Below are positions 2,590 through 64,000 of a DNA stretch of 64,000 nt, piece after piece. The notes under the pieces are model-generated. The model made no database searches. It was not told the origin of the DNA and was given only the letters and a program-made list of their open reading frames with translations. The stretch is from Panorpa germanica. Lineage: Eukaryota; Arthropoda; Insecta; Mecoptera; Panorpidae. Within the stretch, counting starts at the first letter, position 1; each line of letters opens with the position of its first letter. A program made the translations under genes and the position numbers. The DNA is taken from assembly GCA_963678705.1 (NCBI GenBank), contig OY783204.1, positions 6,083,834 through 6,147,833 on the forward strand, written 5' to 3'.

Positions 2590-4488
2590 ATTAATGCGAA
2601 CATGCATGTACACAGTCCTTAAAGAAAATAAAAATTAAATTATTTGTAGTAATAGAATTAAGTTTTACTTCTCAGAAAATCAATTCAATCTTTTATGTTT
2701 CAATAATACCTCTCACATAAAAAAACTTATAATAATAATGAAATGTAAATAGGTAAAATGTAAATAAAATGAAGAAAGAAGGGCCAAAAAAAAGCCCGTG
2801 AAGTATTGATAAGAAAAAAATATATATAAAAACTTATTCTTTGTATATGTATATATGTTTTCTGTGTTCCAAGTAATTTTCGTAAATATTTCTATTATTT
2901 TACCATTTTCGTTTCCGTTGTATTGTCGTATGTGATAAGAGGTTATTTTATTATGAGTTTGATAAAAAGAAGAATATTTGAATATTAGTTGGTTTATGCG
3001 TATTTAATGTGGTTGGTGTTTAATTGGTACATCGATAATCCAGAACATTAGGGAATCGTTTCAAAAAAAATCGAAATTCGAGTTATACCATATGCAAAAC
3101 TGTATACTTTATCTGATTAAGATAACTCATGAATGCAACCAAATAAATTATATTGCAGATAAACTTGTATTGAATAAAACAAAATCGTAACGTTGTCTGC
3201 ATCATTAGAGAGTTATTTGCAAAATGTTCTACTAATGGTGCAAACTGTAATATCTCCTTTGTGTTTGTTGTTTTTCTTATATAATTCATAATTAAAATTA
3301 AAATTAAATGTATTAATTTTATAAAATACTATTTTATATAGGCTTCATTCTTCCAGTAGTTATAAATATGTTTTCTCCATGTCTATAGTTCTGTTAAAAC
3401 ATGAGTATAAACTTTGGACTTTTAAGTGCATTCCAAATTCAACATGATTGGCCAAATCCAAGTCAGATTAAATTACTACTGTACTAAACATAATGCTTTT
3501 CAAGCTAAACTTAATTCTAAGTTCAAGTTCGATATAATTTTATAGAATCTATTTACGTAAATACATTTTTTTTATTTGTAAAGCAATCTATTCAGTCTCA
3601 AGCCAAAAAATTGTTTGAGATGATTTCGAAGTGCTTTGCTCATTTCGTCACTTTTTATCACGGCAGCTAGTCAAAGACGAAGTTAATGTTTTTGCTGAGG
3701 ATTTAAGTCAATATTAAACCAGAAATTTGTTGTCATCGACAAATATCGAAGAACCCGCTGGCACTAACAATGTTAGATAACGGAGAATTAAAAAAAAAAA
3801 CTTTAAACTGGCGTTATCTCGAAAACCATGTGACTTTTACTAAGGTAATGTTAGGTTTATTCGATGCGTCTGAGACAGGTCTATCTACGGCGTTAGTTTG
3901 ACGTGTGACTTTTGAGACACCCTGTATTCCTCAATATACCAATGCGTGTATACAATTTGTTTAGATTGCGTTATATTGACTGTTGCTTGTCTAATGATTC
4001 ACGATTTTGTTAAATAACTTTCATGGTTATTCTATGTTCTTTAACATGCCCACTACGTTCCACAAGGACTACATTTTTACCTTTCTTTATTGTTTGTGGT
4101 TGAAAAATAATGTTGTGGGTAATTGGATGGAATTCTCTTTTTATAATAATTTCCATTTTACACTTAAAACTAAAACTAAATATTGTTTATTATTTTTTAT
4201 ACAATTATTTAATGATAAACTTTTTAAAATATTTTAACACTGCCTATCGAAATTTTGGGCTTTGTTTTTATTAATACTTTTTCAGCTGATAAAGAAAGAA
4301 ATCAAAACTTAAATTATTTAGAAATGTTGTACACACAAAAAAAAAAAATTAAAAAAAAAAAATTGGAAAATAAACAACACTACAACATTTCATTGTTTTT
4401 AACTGTATTCCTGTAAAGTAAAATGTTTCCGCTGTAATTTCTAAATTGTTTGACGCACAGCGTCAGTACAGACTTTATTGACTTTCTA
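2590..4488. other. AT-rich intergenic stretch, nothing recognised
   Basis: I see no supported gene or element here. The stretch upstream of the sina-like gene is AT-rich with poly-A runs near 4335-4365. Any promoter of that gene would lie in its first few hundred bases, but I see no clear core motif. Confidence 0.5.
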
Positions 4489-5621
4489 AATGGGCTTGTG
4501 TCCTATGTCTTAATTTCCACAAAAGTGTACTATATATTGATAAAGTGGGTTACTAGAACCGCAAATGTTCAATTAATTTTAATAACTCCTTATATGTTAA
4601 GAGGTATTAACAATTTAAAAAGACATTTTGTCTCTTTAATTATTAAAGGGATTCAACGTTATACACATTCCAAGTGCATGTGACATCACAATCCTTGTGT
4701 AAGGTTACCAACCTTACAGCTTATAAATCTCTGCTTTAAGTAATTATATCAAAATATCAAATATTATTTACAGCTATTTCAAGGAACAATAAAATTTCAT
4801 ATATTATGTCTGACTTAGCAGGGTTAAACAAAATAGAAACTTATTCTTTGATTTGACTTGATTATTTCGGCTGCCAACAGCTACAAAACATTACAACAGC
4901 ACTGACCTACTCAACAAATAACTGACGTTAATATGTATTTCACGTCATACAAATATAGCCGACCATATCTAACGCTAAAACTACAATGGGCTTCTGTCCT
5001 ATGTCTTAATTTCTACAAAAGTGTACTATATATTGATAAAGTGGGTTACTAGAACCTCAAATGTTCAATTATTTTTTACTAACTCTTTATATGTTAAGAG
5101 ATATTAACAATTAAAAAAGTCATTTTGTCTCTTTAATTATTAAAGGGATTCAACATTGTACACATTCCAAGTGCATGTGACATCACAATCCTTGTGTAAG
5201 GTTACCAACCTTACAGCTTATAAATCTCTGCTTTAAGTATTTATATCAAAATGTTAAATATTATTTACATCTATTTCAAGGAACACTCAAATTCCAATAT
5301 TATGTCTGCCTTAGCAGGGTTAAATAAAATAAAAACTTATTATTCTTTGATTTGACTTGATTATTTGACTACCAACAGCTACAGAACATTACCACATCAC
5401 TGACCTACTCAATAAATAACTGACGTTAAAATGCATTTCACGTCATAAAAATATAGCCGACCATTTTTAGCGCTAAAACTACAATTCAAACTTTTAATTG
5501 CTATATCTCCGTCAATATTTAGATATTTAATAAAATAGACACGCCAATACAAATTTAATAACATCAATTTCAATCAAAAATTGAAAAGTCGACCACTAAA
5601 AAATGAGGACACAAGCCCATT
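4489..5621. mobile_element. Non-autonomous TIR element with a 496-bp internal duplication
   Basis: The ends form a 15-bp inverted repeat, AATGGGCTTGTGTCC at 4489 and its complement ending at 5621. The interior contains two head-to-tail copies of one unit, starting at 4492 and 4988 (period 496). Both carry the same landmarks, such as GTCCTATGTCTTAATTT and AGCGCTAAAACTACAA-like blocks. There is no coding capacity. I could not define a clean target-site duplication, so the superfamily is open. A second, disrupted copy lies on the other strand at 9568-11206. Confidence 0.75.
4988..5485 (+). repeat. Second unit of the 496-bp direct duplication
   Basis: This is a close copy of 4492-4987. The first copy begins GGGCTTGTGTCC and the second GGGCTTCTGTCC. 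They differ by scattered substitutions and small indels along their length. Confidence 0.85.
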
Positions 5622-52241: not shown

Positions 52242-53498
52242 ATGTCTGTGCGTTTTTCAGTTGGGTTGAGTAAGTTTTTCAAAATTAATGATAACCCGGA
52301 AGGGGAAGATCATACACAATTAAACAAAAATAAATTGTTGAACGCTGAATGTAAAATTTGTGCAACAAAATTTTTCATAAATATACAATACTCAAGACGA
52401 AATTTGTACTACCATTTGCAAGTAAGTTAAACTTTATTTAAATTTGAGATACCTAATGAAATATATTTTTAACAAACAAACTTGTCAACAAGCAAATCGA
52501 AAGCGAAACCATTGGCACAATTCAAACATGTGCCAATATATGTATACGTTATAAAATATAAATACAAAGATTTAATTTTGAAAACAAAAAGGTAATTAAT
52601 TTCAAAAAGGTTGCATAACGGCCAAAAAAGTAGGTTATTTATAATTTAATTAAAAAAATATTGAAAAATATAAATAGCATTTAATTATATTTTAGAGAAA
52701 GCATCCAAAAACTATAAATAAATTAAAGGATCTGGAAATTGAAAGCAAACTAATGCAGTCTGACGCTCTTAATAGTAATAATGTTCTCGTAAGTATAACT
52801 ACAAAACTTCTAAGTAATGTATGTATTGTAATTGTGTGTAATTGGATGCCGTAAAGTAACAACATTTATTTTAAATTTCCAAGTATTCTACATGGACTCT
52901 TTATGGAGACTCTTTTCTGGTAAGATATGCCAAAAAGATTTTATTTAAAAAAGAAATAGAATTTAACCACGTAGAATTCGCAAAAAGTGGTAGAAAATCA
53001 GTGAATTTAATGGATGATATCAAAAGAAAAAAGGGTAATCCCTTACTGACACAAAATGCCATTATAATGATCGGAATAAATGACATTATGAAAGTAAGCA
53101 TAAAACATTATATTAAGTAACCTTAAATATAGCTATATGTATAACAATTTAAAATACGACCAAATTTACTTTCAGGAAAAACACTATCAAGCATTTACTT
53201 ACAATATTTCAAGTATTGCAAAGATACTAAGCGAAACTTCATCTAGAGCTATATGGTTAACTTTGCCCACTCCGCCAATATGGGAAAATGACCCTAAAAA
53301 AATAAAAACCTTAGACAAATACAACGAAAGAATTTTATCATTGTCAAAAAGCCGTAAGTTACTTTACTAATTTCATCAAAATTTTCTTTTTATTTATTTA
53401 ACCAGAATATAATTTCAGATCCTTATATTCATGTCCTAGATATACGGGAATTATTTTTACAAAATAATAAAGTGAATGGACACTTGTTTGAGCAGTAA
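52242..53498 (+). CDS. BED zinc finger + SGNH/GDSL-hydrolase-like protein, five exons
   Basis: The exons are 52242-52421, 52696-52788, 52884-53093, 53176-53353 and 53419-53498. All introns are GT-AG, phases 0/0/0/1, giving 246 residues without a stop. Residues about 38-66 form a BED-type finger (CKIC...HLQRKH) split by the first intron. Residues about 95-170 carry SGNH-hydrolase blocks: LYGDSFL (block I, Ser nucleophile), AKSGRKSV (block II Gly) and MIGINDIMK (block III GxND). The C-terminal NGHLFEQ could supply the catalytic His, although the usual preceding Asp is not obvious. A DNA-binding finger on a hydrolase is unusual. The 3' half is duplicated in inverted orientation at 45431-45904. 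It may be cargo of the surrounding transposon. Confidence 0.75.
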
Positions 53499-53537
53499 GA
53501 ACATGAAGTTTATACTTAAATACATACTTATATAAAT
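53064..53537 (+). repeat. Right arm of the 474-bp inverted repeat
   Basis: It pairs with 45431-45904 from ATAATGATCGG to CTTATATAAAT. It starts inside exon 3 of the BED-SGNH gene and is cut at its outer side by the copia 5' LTR. Confidence 0.9.
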
Positions 53538-53886
53538 TGTTGTAATTATAAGTAAATAATTAGTTTTGTATTCACCGCCAATTATAAATATATATGTGTT
53601 ATCATAGTAAAGTAAGTTACCAGTGTAGATATTATTGTAGATACCATCGTAGTACCAGCACTAGGAACACACGAGCCATCTGAGATTGGTAACATTAACT
53701 AATAGTACCGAGAGTGCTTCGTCATGTTGTACAAAGTCGAGTAGTGCTTGTGAATCCAAACGTGATACGGATAGGACGCTCTTTGTGAAACCAGTGCTAA
53801 TACTACATATAGAATACTTTTTAATTAAACATACATCTTTTAATTTACTATCTTTTATTCAATCTCTGCAAGGATAGTTCCCAACA
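53538..53886 (+). repeat. copia 5' LTR
   Basis: 349 bp, TG...CA. The first 227 bases recur at 57682-57908. Confidence 0.9.
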
Positions 53887-53900
53887 GGTTATGGGCCCAG
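53887..53900 (+). other. copia primer-binding site
   Basis: GGTTATGGGCCCAG directly follows the LTR and matches the known copia-type primer site for a half initiator tRNA-Met. Confidence 0.8.
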
Positions 53901-54268
53901 ATTACGATCTTCTGCAACATCGATTAAAAGATATATTACAAGATATCAAGGTTTTGAGAAAAAAGTGAGGCAGCCATCTTGAAGAAAACGAAGGTGATAT
54001 TAATAAGTCCACATGTGCTTGTGAGACTATTTAGACATTAATATTGTGTTTGTGGTGAATGAAAAGTGATATTAATAAGTTCATCGAAACTATTTTGAAA
54101 TTAATATACTTTTTGGGCTGAAAAACGGTAACATTAATAAGTCCACACGTGCTTGTGAGACTATTTAGAAATTAATGAAAGGATTGTGTTCGAACATTAA
54201 GATTAATAAGTCCTCGTGTGTGAGAGACTATTTAGACATTAAGATTGTGCTCGATCGACAAGATTAAG

Positions 54269-55426
54269 ATGACCAACAGTATTAGCATCGTTAAGTTTGG
54301 TGGTAAGAACTACCAGCAATGGAAATTTCAAATGAAGTGCATATTGAAATCGAAGGGTGTGTACGAGTGTACAACAGGCACCGAAGTTAAACCAGGGGTT
54401 AACGCATCAGCTGATTTAGAAACGTGGATTCAAAAGGATGCAACGGCGATGTGCATCATAACCAGCTCGATGGAACTACAGCAAATAACGCTAATCGAAA
54501 ATTGTGAATCGGCCAAGGAAATAATGGACAAACTTAGCTCTATTTATGAGATGAAATCAGAAACGAACAAGATGTTAGTACACGAGAGGTTTCATCAATA
54601 CAAAATGGCACTCAACGAGACGATGGTGCAACATATTTCTAAAGTGGAAAATCTTGGCAAGCAGATACGAGAGTCAGGTGATACTCTCAGTGATACTGCA
54701 ATCATGACTAAAGTATTGAGTACGCTACCATCCAAGTATCGTAACTTTAGGCAAGCATGGTTGTCAGTGGAGGATTCGAAACAGAACATGGCCAACTTAA
54801 CTGGACGTTTGTTGGATGAGGAGGCGAATCTCACGAAATATGAAGAAGAAGAAGAAGTCGCTCTAACAACTACTAGGGCAGTACATACAGAAAGAAGGCA
54901 GATTAATAAGAAAATTGTGACGTGCTTCAAATGTAACCGGAAGGGTCACTACGCGAGGGATTGCAGAACAGTAATGATCAGTAGAAGAAATAAGCAAAAT
55001 GTCTCATGCTTTAAATGTAATCGGAAGGGTCATTACGCGAGAGATTGTAAAAGGATAACGAATCAATTCGAAGAAGAACCACACCAAAGTAATCACGGCG
55101 CCTTCAACGCAGAAATATGCAACCAGACTATCAGCAAAGAAGGTTGGATCCTGGATAGCGGAGCTTCAACCCATATGACATATAAACGGGAATTCTTTGA
55201 TACGTTTAGTGACTGTAAGGGACTCACCGTCAAACTAGGCAATAATGAAGAAGTACCTGTGGAAGGCATCGGCACCGTAAAGATTAAGAAATTAATTAAA
55301 GGTAGAAGCGTGGATGGATTGATTACAAATGTCTGGTATATACCCAAGCTAAGGAAGAACTTATTTTCTGAAGGAGTGATAACTAAAAAAGGGATGAAAA
55401 TAGTTAAGCAAAACGAGACAGCTTAA
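54269..55426 (+). pseudogene. copia gag and aspartic protease
   Basis: It starts at the ATG at 54269; the frame is open eight codons earlier only with TTG. The N-terminal half is a copia-type gag (FGGKNYQQWKFQM, LPSKYRNF). Two CCHC knuckles follow (CFKCNRKGHYARDC, twice), which is one more than usual and looks like a small duplication. The protease has WILDSGASTHM. A TAA at 55424-55426 ends the frame just before the integrase. The next frame is in phase with it, so a single nonsense change separates gag-protease from integrase. Confidence 0.85.
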
Positions 55427-56690
55427 ATATACGACCGTGGAATGTTAGTAGCCAGTGCAATCCGAGAATCAAACAACTTGTATAAGCTACAAATCGAAAC
55501 TGTAATTACCATGGAAGCACATACTACAGTAAGGTCAAATCTTCAAGTCTGGCACGAAAGACTAGGACATCTGAATGTTAAGACTCTTTGCGAAATGGTT
55601 TCGAAAGGGTTAGTGGAAGGAGTGGATATTGAAAATACCAACGAATTCTTCTGTGAAGGCTGTCAGCAAGGAAAACAACAGAAGTTGAAATTCGAGAAAC
55701 ACACCAAAACAGTGAGAAGACCTGGTGAAATCATACACAGTGATGTGTGCGGCCCAATGTCTGAACCATCTGTAAGTGGTTGTAGGTACTATGTACTATT
55801 CAAAGATGACCATACTGGTTTTAGAATGGTTTGGTTTATTAAACACAAGACAGACGTTTTACCGTGCTTTCAAAAATACGTAAAGATATGTGAAAATAAA
55901 TTTGGATACAGACCGCAAATTCTGAGAGTTGACAACGGAAAAGAATACTGCAACCGTGAGTTTCAAAGTTATCTTTCATGCAAAGGTATTTTAATGGAAA
56001 CTACGGCACCATATACTCCAGAACAGAACGGGAGATCTGAACGCGATAACAGAACAATTATGGAAAGTGCACGATCAATGCTTTACGCAAGCAAGAAACC
56101 AATGTACCTGTGGGCAGAGGCTGTAAATACAGCAGTATACATACTCAACAGAACGGCAACTAGACAGATTACAGATTCAACACCATATGAAGCCTGGATG
56201 AAAAAGAAACCGAACTTGAGCCATAGCAAAACTTTTGGTTGTGACGCATTCATGCATATTCCAGATGCACTTAGAACGAAGCTGGAAAGTAAAAGTAAGA
56301 AATTAATATTCGTGGGTTATGAAAAGGAATCGACAAATTACAGACTGTTTGACCCAACCACAAAGAAAATCAAAGTATCGAGAAATGTGACATTCAACGA
56401 AAATAACAACTTAGACAGAGAAAACCCAACCCAGATGTCGGAAATAGCAAATGAAAAGGAAAAAGGGGAGATCAACAATCAAGAAGAAGTGATTGAAAAT
56501 GAGACCACAGAATTAAGGAATGAAACTGAAGTCGACCAGGTAAATCGACCGAGACGTAATACGAGAAAACCAATACGTTATACCGAAGCCAACATTGTTG
56601 AAGCGGAAATACCAAACTCGTATGAAGAGGCGTTAAAGAGTGAAAATGGGACAGAATGGCAAGAGGCCATAGACGCAGAACTATTGCAAG
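55427..56690 (+). pseudogene. copia integrase and extreme start of RT
   Basis: In phase after the stop, the zinc-binding HERLGH...CEGC motif is followed by the catalytic core with HSDVCGPM (first Asp), RVDNGKEY (second Asp) and PYTPEQNGRSERDN (Glu). The GKLDGRAxxxxFVGY-equivalent region is followed by IPNSYEEALKSENGTEWQEA, the standard start of copia RT. There the copia sequence stops, at about 56684-56692. Confidence 0.85.
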
Positions 56691-57384
56691 AAGATGTGAA
56701 ACAAGTATTAGATTGGCTTGAAAATCACAGTGAAGTTTTTATTAAGAATAATACAGAAATTAGCAGAAAGATACAGGAGGCAAAAGTATTTCAAAAGTCA
56801 CATAAACATTTTGAAAATATTGCTAAGAACACATACACGAAAGCTGAGAGATTACTAACAGCAGTTGAAGAACTAACACAGACCAGTGAATGCAACGTAC
56901 AGGAGATTCACTGTGTAGCTCAGGAACCAGGAGAGAAGCTTCTACAAGAAATAAGGTCTATGGGAAATATAGACTCTACAGGCTCGATGTCAGCCGTAGA
57001 AGGAGCTGTGGAACGACTTGCTAAACAGCGTGGAGAACTTGAGGAATTCTGGGACACAAGAAAAATGCGACTTGATTTATGTTTAAGGCTACGACTATTT
57101 GAACGAGATGCACTAGATGCATGTTTCCAACTGGATATGTGGACTGAAGAACTGCAGCACAGCGAGTTATGGTACAGGTGCTGCTAGAACTTCTCCATGA
57201 ACGCGAAATGAATATAGTAAATTTAGCCAAGATGAAGCATGTTAAATTAAAGCAAGGTGTACAACTGAGTCAGGTTTAAAAGGACGCCGAGAAAATAATA
57301 AGGACCAGAAATCGAGAAGCTGTGTTACTAACAAGTTTCACAGTACTCAACAGTTTGCAAGATGCAGAACAATTTAAAGAAGGT
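56684..57384 (+). pseudogene. Captured Trio/Kalirin-type spectrin-repeat segment inside copia
   Basis: Where the copia RT should be, the frame runs on into DVKQVLDWLENHSEVF, QKSHKHFENIAKNTYT and AERLLTAVEEL. Then come a join near QEPGEKLLQEI, and EEFWDTRKMRLDL and LFERDALDA. After a second join and frame change near 57165 it reads LLELLHEREMNIV, VKLKQGVQLSQ and SLQDAEQFKE. These are successive spectrin-repeat segments of the Trio/Kalirin Rho guanine-exchange factors, in order but with two stretches missing. No intron is present, so the source was a spliced transcript. A TAA at about 57277 also interrupts it. It is not a functional GEF piece: it lacks the DH-PH domains. The identification rests on my memory of the family. 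Confidence 0.75.
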
Positions 57385-57615
57385 GACACAAATTATGGAA
57401 TGTATACGGAAGATATCTCTGATGCTGACTACGCCAATGCCAGAGACGCAAGAAATGTCTTAACGTTATGCAAGGGAGCTAAAACGCGGAACAGCAAACG
57501 TCAAGCATCAGTAGGACCTACAAGTATTGAAATTAACAGAAGTGTTAAATGTGAAGGACAATTAAATATAGACAATCAAAGTGCCTTTACACTTATAATA
57601 ATATCAGGGATTTAA
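57384..57615 (+). pseudogene. copia RNase H remnant
   Basis: The frame returns to copia: ISDADYANARDARN (the SDADYAGD region), NSKRQASVGPTSIEIN (equivalent to the SSKRQ...STTEAE block, with a changed end) and NIDNQSAFTLI. Internal deletions are evident and the frame stops at 57615. The active site is incomplete. Confidence 0.75.
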
Positions 57616-57681
57616 TATGTGTCAAAGACTGTTTAGATTTAAGGACTTTTCTATTTATAATAAGCTGTGAATATGGGGGCG

Positions 57682-57908
57682 TGTTGTAATTATAAGTAAA
57701 TAATTAGTTTTGTATTCACCGCCAATTATAAATATATATGTGTTATCATAGTAAAGTAAGTTACCAGTGTAGATATTATTGTAGATACCATCGTAGTACC
57801 AGCACTAGGAACACACGAGCCATCTGAGATTGGTAACATTAACTAATAGTACCGAGAGTGCTTCGTCATGTTGTACAAAGTCGAGTAGTGCTTGTGAATC
57901 CAAACGTG
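57682..57908 (+). repeat. copia 3' LTR, truncated
   Basis: It repeats the first 227 bases of the 5' LTR up to CCAAACGTG, where the gypsy LTR begins. The remaining copia LTR should lie beyond the right end of the gypsy element, outside the window. Confidence 0.9.
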
Positions 57909-58379
57909 AGTTAACTATACCCTAATTACTACATCATCATTATTGCATCATATTGCGCAATAGATAAAGTAAACTGTTACTATTTAAAATATAAATATTA
58001 TTCACGAAATATATTTATATTTTAAAACACACGACAGCAACTAATAGTCATCAACTATTAGATGTCACCTTTGAAAGATAAAGTAAACTGTTATAAATAT
58101 TATTCACGAAATATACTTCCTGTGAAAAACACACGGCAACAACTAATAGTCATCAACTATTAGATGTCACCTTGGAACATCAATAAGAATACAGTATAAA
58201 AACGGTATGAACTAAAGAAGAGGGGAGGAGTCTTATTAGAACTCTGACAACAGAACTCGGCTACTCTGTTACAACAAACTATTTAACCATTGTATTATCA
58301 TTATAATCAAATAAATAATTTGTATTCAAAATAAATTAAGTATTTTTTTTGTGTTAAGTATCGTTCCCAAAACTTAACT
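57909..58379 (+). repeat. Gypsy 5' LTR with internal duplication
   Basis: 471 bp. GATAAAGTAAACTGTTA(C/T) to AACTATTAGATGTCACCTT occurs twice (about 57964 and 58077, period about 113), a possible enhancer duplication. TATAAAAA lies at 58195 and AATAAA near 58312. Confidence 0.8.
58195..58202 (+). promoter_or_regulatory. TATA box in the gypsy LTR
   Basis: TATAAAAA, well placed before the GAACTCTGACAAC region that could hold the start site. Confidence 0.5.
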
Positions 58380-58400
58380 GGCGCAGTCGGTAGGATAACT
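58380..58400 (+). other. Gypsy primer-binding site
   Basis: GGCGCAGTCGGTAGGAT directly after the LTR, like the tRNA-Ser primer sites of 17.6/297-type elements. Confidence 0.65.
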
Positions 58401-58479
58401 CACTAGCCACCGTGACTAGTAAAAACGAAGTTTTTGAAAGCAGTTATTCCTAAAAAGAACCGAAAAGTGACACTAACTT

Positions 58480-58670
58480 GTACATACAACAGAACCAAGT
58501 TAGGAGTACCGAGTTAAACACTGTATATACAACAGAACCAGTGTCCGCAAACTACTGTATATACATCAGAACCAGTAGAACAGTGAAAAACAAAAGTGAA
58601 AAACAAAAGTGAAAACAAAAGTGAAAAACAAAAGTGAAAAACAAAAGTGAAAACAAAAGTGAAAAAGAAA
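58480..58670 (+). repeat. Leader microrepeats of the gypsy element
   Basis: TATACAACAGAACCAGT-type words occur three times (58483-58580). A run of AAAAGTGAAAAACA units then recurs about seven times (58583-58665). This is the untranslated leader before gag. The repeats could serve as RNA structure or merely slip during replication. Confidence 0.7.
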
Positions 58671-58841
58671 AACCAACTCTGCAACATACCGAACCAGAGC
58701 AGCCACAGGCACATCAGCAGTACGAGACTCCTGAGACCTACAAGAATGAGACTACTCATCGCAGTAACTCTAATGTAAGTCAGTTTTTGAATTTTAACAA
58801 TTTTCTTGCTTTTATCTATCCTATTCCCAAATATTTAATAT

Positions 58842-60161
58842 ATGAGCGAAAGTGATAACACCAGTGATTCTTCGAGTGATTACACCAATTTCGACTCTGA
58901 TCAATTTGACAGTGAATTATCATTTCAATTCGAAAAATTAAATATAAAAACAGACAATATGCCTAATCTCACGGCTGAACAAATTCTAGCTGAGGCTATG
59001 AACAGAATTCAGGAATTAGAAACGAGACTATCGGCGTTACAACAACGGACTCTTGTAGAGCAAGTCCAAATACCGCGACACGAATTAGTTCATCCCTTCA
59101 GAATGGACAATTCATTTTTCGTAAATATCAAACGTTACAATGGAAATACGGCACAATTATCCGACTTCTTAAAACAAGTAGGAACTATTGTTGAAATTTA
59201 CGAGGATGCACCCCCAACAATTCAAAAGTATATTGTTGAAACAATAATATCGAAATTAGAAGACAGTGCAGCTTACGTAACAGCTGGACGAAATATACAT
59301 TCATGGGAAGAATTAAAAACTATCCTAAAAGAAAACTTTGGTGACCAGCGAAACGAGACAACTCTAGTTTGTGAAATCGGGTTACTAGAGCAACAGTTGG
59401 AAGAAACTCCACAGGACTTTTATAACAAATGTGTCCACCACAAAGCCGCACTATTATCACATAGTCAAGAAAATGACGACCAAAGTGCGTATGAAGCCAA
59501 ATATAAATTGTATACAGATGTTATTCTTGTACAATTTACGAAAGGTCTAAGAGGTACCATAGGAGACAATATCAGAGCAAGAATGCCATCAACATTGGAA
59601 AAAGCATGGTCATTTGTTATCGAAGAACAAAATGTCAGGTATGCTCGAACTAGAATGGGAAATGAGAAAAATCGTAATCCATTGAGAACGGCGAGAACAC
59701 CTGAAAACAGTTTCCCTACTAAACAACAATATAAACCTATGCAAGTACAGCATAAACCATTTGTATCTCAACAACAACAGCAGCAACAAGTACCCAAATT
59801 TGTGTCTCAAAATGTGCCAAAACAGGCATTTGGTAATAAAAACACAAATAAACCTTTTAACAATTGGAGGCAAACAACACCTATGCAGAAACCACAGTTT
59901 CCTGCACCAATGACTAAACCACCCATGCCAAGACCACAGCAGTTTCCACAACAGAATACCCAAAGATGGTATGAACCAATGGAAACATCACAAATGACAC
60001 GAATAAATCACTTGGAATATCAAGTGAAAAATGAAAATGAACCCCAATATGACAAACCACAAGAATGTGAGGAAAATTATGAAAATCACGAGGAAATTGA
60101 ACAACCATCTAATGAAAATTACGAAGAAGAACAGGATTTTCAGGAAGGTGCCTCGGATTAG
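58842..60161 (+). CDS. Errantivirus-type Gag
   Basis: An intact 439-residue ORF from ATG. An acidic start is followed by a coiled-coil-like stretch (ILAEAMNRIQELETRLSAL), then a capsid-type region (RYNGNTAQLSDFL, YIVETIISKLEDSA, LRGTIGDNI). The tail is rich in Gln, Pro and Asn. No CCHC zinc knuckle is present, which is usual for this group. It forms the particle core. The stop overlaps the pol frame, which lies at -1. Confidence 0.9.
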   Translation: MSESDNTSDSSSDYTNFDSDQFDSELSFQFEKLNIKTDNMPNLTAEQILAEAMNRIQELETRLSALQQRTLVEQVQIPRHELVHPFRMDNSFFVNIKRYNGNTAQLSDFLKQVGTIVEIYEDAPPTIQKYIVETIISKLEDSAAYVTAGRNIHSWEELKTILKENFGDQRNETTLVCEIGLLEQQLEETPQDFYNKCVHHKAALLSHSQENDDQSAYEAKYKLYTDVILVQFTKGLRGTIGDNIRARMPSTLEKAWSFVIEEQNVRYARTRMGNEKNRNPLRTARTPENSFPTKQQYKPMQVQHKPFVSQQQQQQQVPKFVSQNVPKQAFGNKNTNKPFNNWRQTTPMQKPQFPAPMTKPPMPRPQQFPQQNTQRWYEPMETSQMTRINHLEYQVKNENEPQYDKPQECEENYENHEEIEQPSNENYEEEQDFQEGASD

Positions 60162-63100
60162 AAAATATTAAATTAAACACTAATAAAAATGCACCTTTAC
60201 CTTTTATATATATCGACGAATTAAAAGCTAAGTTTCTAATTGATACAGGATCATCAAGAACCTTAATAAAACCATCTCTTGCTTTTAAATATTATAATAA
60301 ATATGTAAAAGATGATGAATTTTCAATCACTACACCACATCAAACTACCAACCATAAATATACGGCAACAATCCCACTATTTCCTACTTTCAAAGAAAAC
60401 CAATATCACAAAATATATTTGTTTGACTTTGACAAGAAATTCCACGGTTTAATAGGCGTTGACTTAATTAAACAACTAAAAGGAAAAATTGATTTTGAAA
60501 ATAATATACTAAAAACACCGAAAACAAATATTAAAATATATATGGACAATGAAGAATTTATTAAATTAAATACATTAAAAATAAAAAATGAACATCTTAA
60601 TGAAGAAGAATCAAGAAATCTATATAAATTATTAAATTCATACAAAGACTTATTTCCGGCAGAAAATGAATTACTATCTTTTACTAATGTAACTAAACAT
60701 CATATTAGAACAACAGATGATGAACCCATCTATGTAAAAAACTACCCTTATCCAGAAATACATAGAAAAGAAGTTACACGACAGATAGAAAATATGAAAA
60801 ATCAAGGAATAATTAGAAACAGTCAATCACCATATAACTGTCCTATTATAATAGTCCCAAAGAAAATGGACAACAGTGGAAAAGCGAAAATAAGAATTGT
60901 TAACGATTATAGAAAACTAAACCATAAAACAATTGAAGATAAATTCCCGATACCTAATATAGACGGAGTACTTAGTAAAATAGGTAATTCAAATTACTTT
61001 ACAACCTTAGATTTACACAGTGGATTTCTACAAATAGAAATGCATTCTGACAGTGTAGAGAAAACTGCTTTCTCTACAGAAACAGGACACTATGAATACC
61101 TTAGAATGCCCTTTGGTTTAAAAAATGCTCCGGCGACTTTCCAGAGAACAATGAACCACGTCTTAGATGGACTAGTAAATAATATTTGCCTAGTGTATCT
61201 TGATGATATAATTATTTTTGGAACATCTCTACAAGAACATTTAGAAAACTTAAGGCATGTGTTAAATCGATTAAGAGATGCTAAGTTAAAAATTCAAATA
61301 GATAAATGTGAATTCTTAAAGAAAGAAACAGAATTCTTAGGACATATTGTAACATCAAATGGCTTGAAACCAAACCCTAATAAACTAGAAGCTATTAAGA
61401 AATTTCCTATGCCTATTACACCTAAAGACATAAAAAGTTTTCTTGGACTCTCCGGATACTATAGAAAATTTATAAAAGATTATGCGAAAATAGCTAAGCC
61501 ATTAACCCTATGTCTCAAGAAAGGACATAAAAATCTATATACACCTGAATACCACCAAGCATTCAATGTTTTAAAAGAAACCCTAATAAACGCACCAATA
61601 TTGATACGACCTAACTATGATAAACAATTTATTCTAACGACAGATGCTTCAAACATAGCAATCGGAGCAGTATTATCTCAGAAGGAAAATAATAACGACA
61701 AGCCTATAGCATATGCTTCTCGAACTCTCAATGAAGCTGAAAATAAATATTCAACAATCGAAAAAGAACTCTTAGCGATTGTATGGGCAACAGGATACTT
61801 CAGACATCATTTATATGGAAGAAAATTTAAATTGATAACTGATCACAGACCTCTTGTATGGCTTAAAGACACTAAGAACGTCTCTTCAAAATTAACAAGA
61901 TACCAAATCAAGTTACTAGACTATGACTATGAGATTGAATACAAACCAGGACAACAAAATAAAGTAGCAGACGCTTTATCAAGAGTCAGAATAAATGTTT
62001 TCCCTAAAACTGAAAAACCAGATGAAACCAGTTCACTCTTTAATAACCCAGATGTGACTATGGAGGATCTTCAATTTCTTGACGAAATACCCGACATAGA
62101 AGTTATACAAAATAACCCGGAACAACAACAAGAAATACCAGAACAAATAATTGATCTAACGTCTGAAGAAAATACTATTGATCAAACACCGGAAGAAAGA
62201 TCAATGAAAACACCACCAATAAGAGGAAGTTCAACTGTCTCTAACGCAACAATTCATTCACAACAAGAAAGCGATGAAGGAATACCTATATGTGAAAAAC
62301 CATTAGAATCACATCTACATCAGATACTTATAACATATACTTTTAAAGAACCACCTAAAACAATATTAATAAAAAGAGATACACAACAAATTTTTAAAAT
62401 ATCAGTAAAATATAAAAATAAAGACCAATTAATACAAGAACTTAAAAAATTAAATCCTAAAGAAAAATATTACGTACAAACTGCAGAAGACATATACAGA
62501 AACCTTATTATAGTTCGAAAGGAATATTTTCCAACGTTAAAACTCTACAGGTGTATGAAAAACGTTAAATACGTTAAAGACTTACAACAAAGAAAAAATT
62601 TAATACACGAATATCATACGGATATAACGAATCATAGAGGAATACCCGATTTAATCAAGAGATTAAAAGAAAAATATTTTTGGACTACCATAGAAAAAGA
62701 AATAAAAATATATGTGGACAATTGCAGATTATGCAAATCTAACAAATATGAGCGACACCCTACCCAAACTCATTTGAACATCACTGAGACTCCAAATAGA
62801 CCTTTTCAACTAATACACATTGATACATTTGTTATTGAAAGAAAAGAATATCTAACAATGATAGATCCCTTTAGCAAATATGCTATAATAAAAAACATAC
62901 TAGGTAAAAATAGTATAGAAATTGTAAACAAATTGATAGAAATACTATCCACAATACCAATACCTCAAACAATAATTATGGATCAAGGATCAGAATTCAT
63001 AAATCTTGGAGTAAAAGAACTATTGGCTACACATAAAATAAATACACATTTCACTACAGCAGGACATCACACCGGAAATAGTCCTGTAGAAAGACTACAT

Positions 63101-63601
63101 AGCACACTGATTGAACATTATAGAATAATCAAAGAAACTAATGATACTATCTCACCAGTGGAAATAATGAATAAATGTGTATTAGCCTATAACCATACCA
63201 TACATTCAACTACTGGTATGACTCCTTTAAGTGTATTATACGGATCAAACACACGCAACATATTTGATCTAGAAATAGAAAAGGAAATTACCCAGGACAA
63301 GATAAAAGATCATCTTGACAGCCTAGAGAGAATATACGACAAAATACACGAAGAAAACATTCACAAGAAAAATGTTACTATTAACAGAATTAACGACAAA
63401 ATAAAAGCTACTACATTTAATATAGGAGATTTAGTTTACATAAACAAAAATCTAAGAAATAAAGCAGATCCAATTAAAAAAGGACAGTATGTAATTCAAC
63501 AAATAAATAAACAAACAAACGTTATGAATTTAAAACATATACAAACAGGAAAACTTATAGCAAAACATGCAAAAGAAGTTACTAAAATAAAACACCTTTA
63601 A
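60134..63601 (+). CDS. Errantivirus-type Pol (protease, RT, RNase H, integrase)
   Basis: The frame is open from the gag overlap (-1 relative to gag). There is no ATG at its start, so ribosomal frameshifting near GATTTTCAGG (60135-60144) is the likely route. Protease FLIDTGSS lies at about 60235. The RT has FTTLDLHSGF and the catalytic YLDDI at about 61197. RNase H has TTDASNIAIGAVL and ATGYFRHHLYGR. Integrase has an HHCC finger (HEYH...CRLC) and the D,D,E core (HIDTF, IMDQGSEF, SPVERLH). No stop or frameshift was seen over about 1,150 codons, so it may be active. Confidence 0.93.
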   Translation, partial: GFSGRCLGLENIKLNTNKNAPLPFIYIDELKAKFLIDTGSSRTLIKPSLAFKYYNKYVKDDEFSITTPHQTTNHKYTATIPLFPTFKENQYHKIYLFDFDKKFHGLIGVDLIKQLKGKIDFENNILKTPKTNIKIYMDNEEFIKLNTLKIKNEHLNEEESRNLYKLLNSYKDLFPAENELLSFTNVTKHHIRTTDDEPIYVKNYPYPEIHRKEVTRQIENMKNQGIIRNSQSPYNCPIIIVPKKMDNSGKAKIRIVNDYRKLNHKTIEDKFPIPNIDGVLSKIGNSNYFTTLDLHSGFLQIEMHSDSVEKTAFSTETGHYEYLRMPFGLKNAPATFQRTMNHVLDGLVNNICLVYLDDIIIFGTSLQEHLENLRHVLNRLRDAKLKIQIDKCEFLKKETEFLGHIVTSNGLKPNPNKLEAIKKFPMPITPKDIKSFLGLSGYYRKFIKDYAKIAKPLTLCLKKGHKNLYTPEYHQAFNVLKETLINAPILIRPNYDKQFILTTDASNIAIGAVLSQKENNNDKPIAYASRTLNEAENKYSTIEKELLAIVWATGYFRHHLYGRKFKLITDHRPLVWLKDTKNVSSKLTRYQIKLLDYDYEIEYKPGQQNKVADALSRVRINVFPKTEKPDETSSLFNNPDVTMEDLQFLDEIPDIEVIQNNPEQQQEIPEQIIDLTSEENTIDQTPEERSMKTPPIRGSSTVSNATIHSQQESDEGIPICEKPLESHLHQILITYTFKEPPKTILIKRDTQQIFKISVKYKNKDQLIQELKKLNPKEKYYVQTAEDIYRNLIIVRKEYFPTLKLYRCMKNVKYVKDLQQRKNLIHEYHTDITNHRGIPDLIKRLKEKYFWTTIEKEIKIYVDNCRLCKSNKYERHPTQTHLNITETPNRPFQLIHIDTFVIERKEYLTMIDPFSKYAIIKNILGKNSIEIVNKLIEILSTIPIPQTIIMDQGSEFINLGVKELLATHKINTHFTTAGHHTGNSPVERLHSTLIEHYRIIKETNDTISPVEIMNKCVLAYNHTIHSTTGMTPLSVLYGSNTRNIFDLEIEKEITQDKIKDHLDSLERIYDKIHEENIHKKNVTINRINDKIKATTFNIGDLVYINKNLRNKADPIKKGQYVIQQINKQTNVMNLKHIQTGKLIAKHAKEVTKIKHL

Positions 63602-63609
63602 TTCCAGAG

Positions 63610-64000
63610 GTTGGACCATCGGGGCAACAGGAGACGTAATACAGAAAATTACTGACAATCCCGGACTATATCCAGTACAACTAGGAATAGCAACCAACAT
63701 AAAAACATATTGGAAACTCATAAAAGTCATAAACTACGCACCTTTGATTGAAAAAAGTAAAAACATAAATCTACAAGCAGAAACATTTTTACAAAAATAT
63801 ACATTAAAAATTGATAAAACACCATATAAAATATATCAAACTACTGTTAATGAAAATACTAAAAGAATAGAACAAATTGTTAATGAAATATTTACTACAC
63901 CTATTAATCGAATGAAAAGATCAATAGAACCACTAGGAAATATAATTAAAATTATATCAGGAAACCTAGATGCCGAAGATGGTAGAAGATATGACAATGC
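63610..64000 (+). CDS. Errantivirus-type envelope exon, partial
   Basis: A frame +1 to pol opens after TAA near 63592 and runs to the window edge without ATG. TTTAATTCCAG at 63599-63609 is a good splice acceptor, and errantivirus env is made from a spliced RNA. It holds a furin-like RMKR site, and soon after it the GNLDAEDG-type stretch that is typical of insect errantivirus envelopes related to baculovirus fusion proteins. The visible part is open. The transmembrane end is outside the window. Confidence 0.75.

Follow-up and report, generated by a model that had tools for sequence, protein, structure and literature searches.

Helper-dependent transducing retroviruses and defective genomes carry a host segment in place of a replication gene, are moved by a helper and recombine with it. 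Among LTR elements, the maize retroelement Bs1 has transduced an H+-ATPase and two other gene fragments (PMC13317346; PMC7264820), and maize gene-fragment captures comprise 425 elements and at least 189 captures (PMC2774510). LTR-mediated retroposition of mRNAs has been described in metazoans (Tan et al., 2016, via PMC9674220 and PMC5408686), and Pxyfem of Plutella consists of retrocopies of PxyMasc (PMC9674220).

The locus analysed here lies in a window of 64,000 nucleotides of the Panorpa germanica genome (the whole stretch of DNA studied; positions refer to it unless a contig is named). It is an LTR-retrotransposon transduction of a host mRNA, a known kind of event, in which a copia element carries a coding segment of trio. 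With its host segment in place of a replication gene, a helper and recombination, the element would be analogous to helper-dependent transducing retroviruses, but it is an intracellular copia with no env and no known effect on the host cell. As far as the cited portions go, the maize captures (PMC2774510) are the same kind of event, and Bs1 is alike in being an LTR element with host gene fragments (PMC13317346; PMC7264820), whereas the present case involves a single fragment, joined in frame to pol in a copia of an insect and present at no fewer than 51 loci, and an RT-bearing relative and two later recombinations are readable. LTR-mediated retroposition, on the same basis, likewise involves template switches that join LTR-element RNA to host mRNA at short words common to both (PMC9674220; PMC5408686), but the products described are retrocopies, whereas the Trio product became a mobile family that was probably re-joined to new 5′ halves. 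Pxyfem is similar in having an insect host mRNA fragment beside an LTR-element gag with a 4-nt word at the switch; in the part of the account that describes it, LTRs were not found and tandem copies lie on the W (PMC9674220), whereas here whole elements with target site duplications (TSDs) are present. What sets the present case apart is that the chimera multiplied to many copies, that pol enzymes were replaced in frame, that an RT-bearing sister can be seen and that the product was repeatedly re-joined. Among the titles and abstract openings of the matches listed in a literature search, whose coverage left most subscription papers outside, there was neither a Trio capture nor a copia element in which host mRNA takes the place of RT.

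The copia element occupies 53538–57908 on the plus strand, continues past the window and is recognized by its LTRs, primer binding site and gag, protease (PR) and integrase (IN) domains. A 5-bp TSD, TAAAT (53533–53537), precedes the 349-bp 5′ LTR (TG...CA; 53538–53886, plus strand), and directly 3′ of it lies a 14-base primer binding site, GGTTATGGGCCCAG (53887–53900, plus strand), which is identical in L002–L005 and which we take to be of the copia type, using an internal site of the initiator-Met tRNA. All following features are on the plus strand. Gag with two CCHC knuckles, protease (ILDSGAS) and Pol_BBD span 54269–55423 (PF14223, 1.3e-32; PF00098; PF22936), followed by gag_pre-integrase, the integrase core, an SH3-like domain and the first residues of reverse transcriptase (RT) at 55427–56679 (PF13976; PF00665 (rve), 3.2e-12; PF25597 (SH3_retrovirus), 1.8e-29). 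The 6-nt junction word ACTATT (56680–56685), common to the RT-bearing L071 and the older chimera L029, leads into the captured Trio spectrin-repeat coding segment (56686–57378), which is intronless, carries two deletions and comprises the end of exon X, exons Y and A–D and part of exon E. The 3′ capture junction (57372–57378) reads ACTTAAA in host trio, RT-bearing copia and L021/L044, with one base changed in the window. Beyond it, an RNase H remnant, read by eye against L067/L068, has lost the TTEAE block to internal deletions and ends at a stop at 57613–57615 (57379–57615); a purine-rich, polypurine-tract-like stretch, also seen by eye, lies at 57670–57681 ahead of the 3′ LTR. Only the first 227 bp of this LTR (57682–57908) are within the window, the other 122 bp lying past a gypsy insertion on contig C1. 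When joined across the gypsy element, the 3′ LTR is identical to the 5′ LTR over 349/349 positions, as the LTRs had seemed at first reading, and TAAAT is found on both flanks, its second copy lying after the 3′ LTR, beyond the window on C1.

The gypsy element (57909–64000, plus strand, running past the window) was inserted into the copia 3′ LTR later than copia itself, with a 4-bp duplication, CGTG. It is errantivirus-like by layout, with an RT match of 7.9e-37 and gag-like and protease matches below the Pfam cut-off, and it is also young, because its two LTRs do not differ over their first 193 bp. On the upstream side of the copia insertion, 52875–53490 holds short coding pieces with likely GT-AG introns between them, which by eye resemble an SGNH-hydrolase-type end (GDSFLVRYAKK, DPYIHVLDIRELF); two of the pieces were run against Pfam and gave no match.

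An open reading frame at 55427–57184 runs from copia IN into Trio, so the in-frame joining of Trio to the integrase and first RT residues stands as originally predicted. The predicted return to copia RNase H stands in part: the remnant is present, but in the window copy it is not reached in an open frame, which is broken by a TAA at 55424–55426 that closes the gag-protease frame and by a 157-nt frameshifting deletion. In sister copies, unlike the window copy, the frame is open from Trio into RNase H. In a Pfam domain search, RVT_2 was absent from the ORFs of the window and of L003. The gag, PR and IN are of copia type, in the RT-bearing L065 IN lies upstream of RT, as does the IN/RT border in L066–L068; the chimera is a derived, non-autonomous relative of Ty1/copia elements.

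The region first placed at 56684–57384 is confirmed as Trio sequence, with its borders corrected to about 56680–56685 and 57372–57378. On its own, the window's shortened piece matched PF25075 (0.00068) and Spectrin (0.036), both below the Pfam cut-off, and its best matches among PDB sequences were spectrin chains, with no Trio chain among them. The undeleted form in L021 matched PF23323 ('Kalirin-like, spectrin repeats') above the cut-off (E=1.4e-7), in agreement with the Trio/Kalirin-like character originally claimed, and the open 862-aa frame of L003 matched PF23323 (6.6e-7) in addition to rve, SH3_retrovirus and Pol_BBD. A search of 5.8 billion proteins with the L003 segment returned 55 matches, of which 54 carried PF23323 and one spectrin only, and the best was the Triple functional domain protein (Trio) of Zootermopsis (E=1.5e-114). 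A retroelement domain was present in none of these 55 matches, for which candidates were limited to 0.55–1.75 times the query length.

The source gene has been located in the same genome, on contig C20, where exons X, Y and A–E run in one direction: the end of X (to 6727606), Y (6727682–6727804), A (6758440–6758631), B (6758738–6758922), C (6763111–6763273), D (6765324–6765551) and the start of E (from 6765626). Two RhoGEF regions lie downstream on the same strand (6768267–6769410 and 6825956–6826424), and the spliced exons are colinear with residues 550–928 of Zootermopsis Trio at 81%. The captured stretch covers parts of these seven exons. The introns within its span, all GT-AG, measure 75, 30635, 106, 4188, 2050 and 74 bp, and all six are precisely absent from the element copies, which bears out the predicted origin from a spliced host transcript. 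Their clean removal is the strongest sign that the cassette derives from mRNA, and DNA-level capture of trio is ruled out by it.

The chimera is present at no fewer than 51 loci, host trio itself excluded, and has moved many times since capture. A DNA search with the Trio segment gave 88 matches at 40 loci, a lower bound, scoring having covered 40 of the 59 first-look candidates; eight loci came from searches with other parts, and three more were added, two of them, on C6, counted from search matches alone. Four loci on C5 (4.23–4.31 Mb) give like matches and probably represent a single copy that was duplicated. The TSD was exact in 10 of the 12 copies tested (window, L002–L005, L021, L025, L026, L028 and L031) and did not match in L022, where the 5′ LTR is incomplete, and L023 (4/5 bases). 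LTR pairs are identical in L003 (349/349), L004 (350/350) and L005 (350/350) and nearly so in L002 (347/349), while those of seven older copies differ by K=0.018–0.071; the younger chimera copies moved very recently. A stop-free frame of 1150–1206 codons crosses the chimera in six copies (L003, L004, L005, L006, L007 and L009), and stops or deletions are present in other copies, including that of the window.

RT-bearing relatives of the chimera have been found in the same genome. A 36-base pattern from the IN/RT border, with three mismatches allowed, occurs at 52 places (reversed control, 0): 25 precede Trio as in the window, eight are followed by 168 nt of RT and then Trio, and 19 are without Trio, of which 17 run on into RT and two are cut off by unrelated sequence. 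Among the latter 19, L067 and L068 have a frame open through RT and RNase H, the RT frame of L066 is open and breaks at RNase H, and that of L065 breaks before RNase H; of the other 15, 13 continue into RT at 90.8–100% over 321–360 nt, and two pass into unrelated sequence after about 150 nt. The RT of L068 matched RVT_2 at 4.9e-63. LTR identity between chimera and RT-bearing copies is 99.7% for L003–L067, 98.9% for L010–L066 and 97.7% for window–L068, compared with 96.5% for L003–window and 87.9% for L003–L021 between chimeras; a chimera's LTR can thus be nearer to that of an RT-bearing copy than to another chimera's. Because RT-less copies have identical LTR pairs, the best reading is that the chimera was mobilized in trans by the RT of an intact relative. 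Two arrangements of RT-bearing copies were also observed: L068, L072 and L073 (C1:3375167–3387885) have a spacing of 6341–6342 bp and identical RT starts, like a tandem array, and the fragments L075 and L076 (C5:15207190–15213110) lie 5 kb apart in divergent orientation, each interrupted about 150 nt into RT by one and the same unrelated sequence.

Three classes of chimera can be distinguished by their 5′ junctions. In class i, the IN zinc-finger region is joined to Trio exon X (junctions read in L027/L035, L029, L030/L044, L050 and L088); L047 and L051 are also without IN, with edges that differ from class i, and L053 and L056 have no copia sequence upstream of Trio within the stretch examined. 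Class ii (25 places by the pattern, window included) has IN and the first RT residues joined to Trio; later deletions close to the junction occur in a few of its copies, L028 and L031 among them, and L008 lacks part of IN. Class iii (eight copies by searches, of which L069 and L070 were read) has 168 nt more of RT and then Trio from window position 56834. In a nucleotide tree of the Trio segment rooted on host trio, five IN-less lineages (with L053 and L056) are successively basal and the IN-bearing chimeras are nested; several nodes are weakly supported, and the order of the classes therefore leans on the mosaic comparison. The class ii copy L021 and the class i copy L027 are similar in Trio (93.7%), the RNase H end (91.5%, 130 nt) and gag (89.5%), and less so from PR to the IN zinc finger (81.6%), in the leader (84.5%) and in the LTR (80.5%, 154 nt); the corresponding values for L021 and L029 are 92.0 (Trio), 93.6 (RNase H end), 90.5 (gag), 81.2 (PR to IN zinc finger), 73.5 (leader) and 77.5% (LTR). 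From gag to IN, the RT-bearing L065 is 93.9–96.9% identical to seven IN-bearing chimeras, against 82.7 and 87.6% (two pieces) to the IN-less L027 and 84.3% to L029. This mosaic similarity suggests the RT-bearing lineage as the most likely origin of the 5′ half of class ii, with IN regained, as opposed to a loss in each of five lineages; on the same table, plain descent was rejected for that half. The class ii event may be a patchwork, because L021 and L027 diverge less in gag (89.5%) than in PR (81.6%).

The junctions themselves bear on the mechanism. Two of them date to the capture and two to later recombination, and all four (4/4) hold a shared word: ACAATG at the capture 5′ junction (6 nt), ACTTAAA at the capture 3′ junction (7 nt), ACTATT in class ii (6 nt) and TACACG in class iii (6 nt). 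Random breakpoints, of which 200,000 were drawn in each of three comparisons, reach a shared word of 6 nt or more in 0.17–0.22%. The words were measured on present-day stand-in copies picked among several (the class ii parents L071 and L029 were picked for matching, and L068 has GAATTATC at that site), a selection that favours finding a junction word. Edges at 6–7-nt words common to trio and copia support the template switching originally proposed.

We consider it very likely that a host mRNA was captured by template switching, that the product was mobilized in trans and that it was later re-joined to new 5′ halves with IN regained. A spliced mRNA from trio of the host lineage and a copia RNA, presumably packaged together, would have been reverse transcribed together, with the polymerase switching template twice at shared words, once near RNase H (ACTTAAA) and once in the zinc-finger region of IN (ACAATG). 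The IN core, RT and part of RNase H would thereby have given way, in frame, to about 1.14 kb of Trio coding sequence, yielding class i. The RT-less chimera would then have lived on RT supplied in trans by copia with the same LTRs. Later switches at ACTATT (class ii) and TACACG (class iii), in an order that we infer, would have joined the Trio cassette to new 5′ halves (LTR–gag–PR–IN) from RT-bearing RNAs and restored IN. Younger copies carry a 249-nt in-frame deletion.

An intronless fragment would also result if a LINE had made a processed trio retrocopy that landed as DNA in a copia copy, the hybrid then transposing, and the present tests see only products. This origin is nevertheless highly improbable: the two ends of the Trio fragment lie within the coding sequence, both capture edges coincide with 6–7-nt words common with copia, copia has lost what lay between those edges, a loss that simple insertion does not bring about, and neither poly(A) nor a duplication was present at the Trio edges in the junction contexts examined, a subset of copies. 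The age of the capture raises another alternative, namely that Trio was caught in another species and the element arrived by horizontal transfer, since the element-to-host dS of 0.29–0.45 (longer copies) is older than the present copies. In a 19-sequence protein tree, sampled without close relatives of the host, flies, moths or wasps, host trio and the element group together at 100% support, separate from the 16 sampled Trio proteins and adjoining beetles (91), with a host branch near zero and an element stem of 0.2. Remnants as divergent as 43–70% aa identity, as expected for long residence, indicate that the family is old in this genome, and together with the tree they make such an arrival very unlikely. 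A chimera of the assembly is practically impossible and is refuted by independent loci, the copies lying at 51 or more loci on many contigs with matching TSDs and three junction classes. Capture by template switching from the host's own trio mRNA is thus the preferred reading.

A separate matter is whether selection keeps the cassette for a protein part that is useful to the element or the host. The Trio frame has been preserved at each shared rearrangement read, including the three 5′ junctions, the 3′ junction and the 249-nt deletion, and the Trio part of L002–L011 is without stops. All-pairs dN/dS is 0.46–0.62 for Trio and 0.13–0.50 for IN, with a simulated neutral value of 0.76 (ratio of proportions); this is a weak measure because Trio read one base off also gives 0.60–0.80. 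Since all-pairs comparisons are not independent, the test was repeated on 12 separate pairs. Trio then showed 116 silent, 261 replacement and 22 stop changes, against 101, 268 and 21 expected, a replacement ratio of 0.85 that was as low in 76 of 300 simulations, with stops as expected. For IN, 178 silent, 212 replacement and 21 stop changes were counted, against 107, 277 and 19 expected, a ratio of 0.46 that was as low in none of 300 simulations. Five deep pairs were mixed for Trio: L021–L027 was constrained (8/300), L003–L027 was borderline (30/300) and three showed no constraint (105, 142 and 184/300). Nearly all change in the protein tree falls on the element branch. Trio codons thus evolve almost neutrally and IN codons are constrained; the selection suggested by all-pairs dN/dS was not supported by the independent pairs, which were given more weight. 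A useful Trio protein is accordingly unlikely, and the cassette is most likely a near-neutral passenger protein sequence. Silent-site diversity in young copies is 0.081 in IN and 0.040 in Trio, as would fit if 5′ halves had been exchanged with the RT-bearing pool; recombination breakpoints could not be placed, the profiles along copy pairs being too even.

Gene capture by retroelements is usually known from its end products. Here, one genome holds the source gene, the recipient, the likely helper, four junctions and three successive classes, and this coexistence allows the steps of capture to be read and dated: a switch at a 6–7-nt word, loss of the enzyme, survival in trans and re-acquisition of IN. 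It suggests that an animal LTR retrotransposon can act like transducing retroviruses and keep the result through many rounds. A more speculative idea, to which we give little credence, is that the cassette is a self-perpetuating module, repeatedly given new 5′ halves (IN included) by its helper like a defective interfering genome, and may be kept for sharing the sequence of an essential host gene, a 'hostage' shield against silencing. Among the 838 21-mers of L003, 249 match trio cDNA at no more than two mismatches; small RNAs directed at the element could therefore strike trio as well, which raises the question of whether small RNAs against a family carrying the sequence of a conserved signalling gene spill over on that gene. 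The longest exact run between L003 and trio cDNA, 41 nt, lies within a segment that differs by about 20% overall and may reflect chance, constraint or gene conversion.

The two Trio stretches missing from the window were originally attributed to exon skipping or repeated switches, but they are later deletions, as older copies have both. The 249-nt stretch, missing in frame at 56927–56929 from the window and other younger chimeras by copy comparison, is retained in L021, L022, L023, L026 and others, and both of its breakpoints are inside exons rather than at trio exon borders, which likewise speaks against exon skipping or repeated switching. The 157-nt stretch, missing at 57168–57170 where a 3-nt repeat is found by the same comparison, is retained in L002–L019, and among mapped copies only the window copy has these breakpoints. 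Other deletions occur nearby in L020/L031 and L024/L025, that of L020 overlapping the 157-nt one of the window. L026 has, in addition, an insertion of about 370 nt within its Trio part, at about 4296–4824 of that copy.
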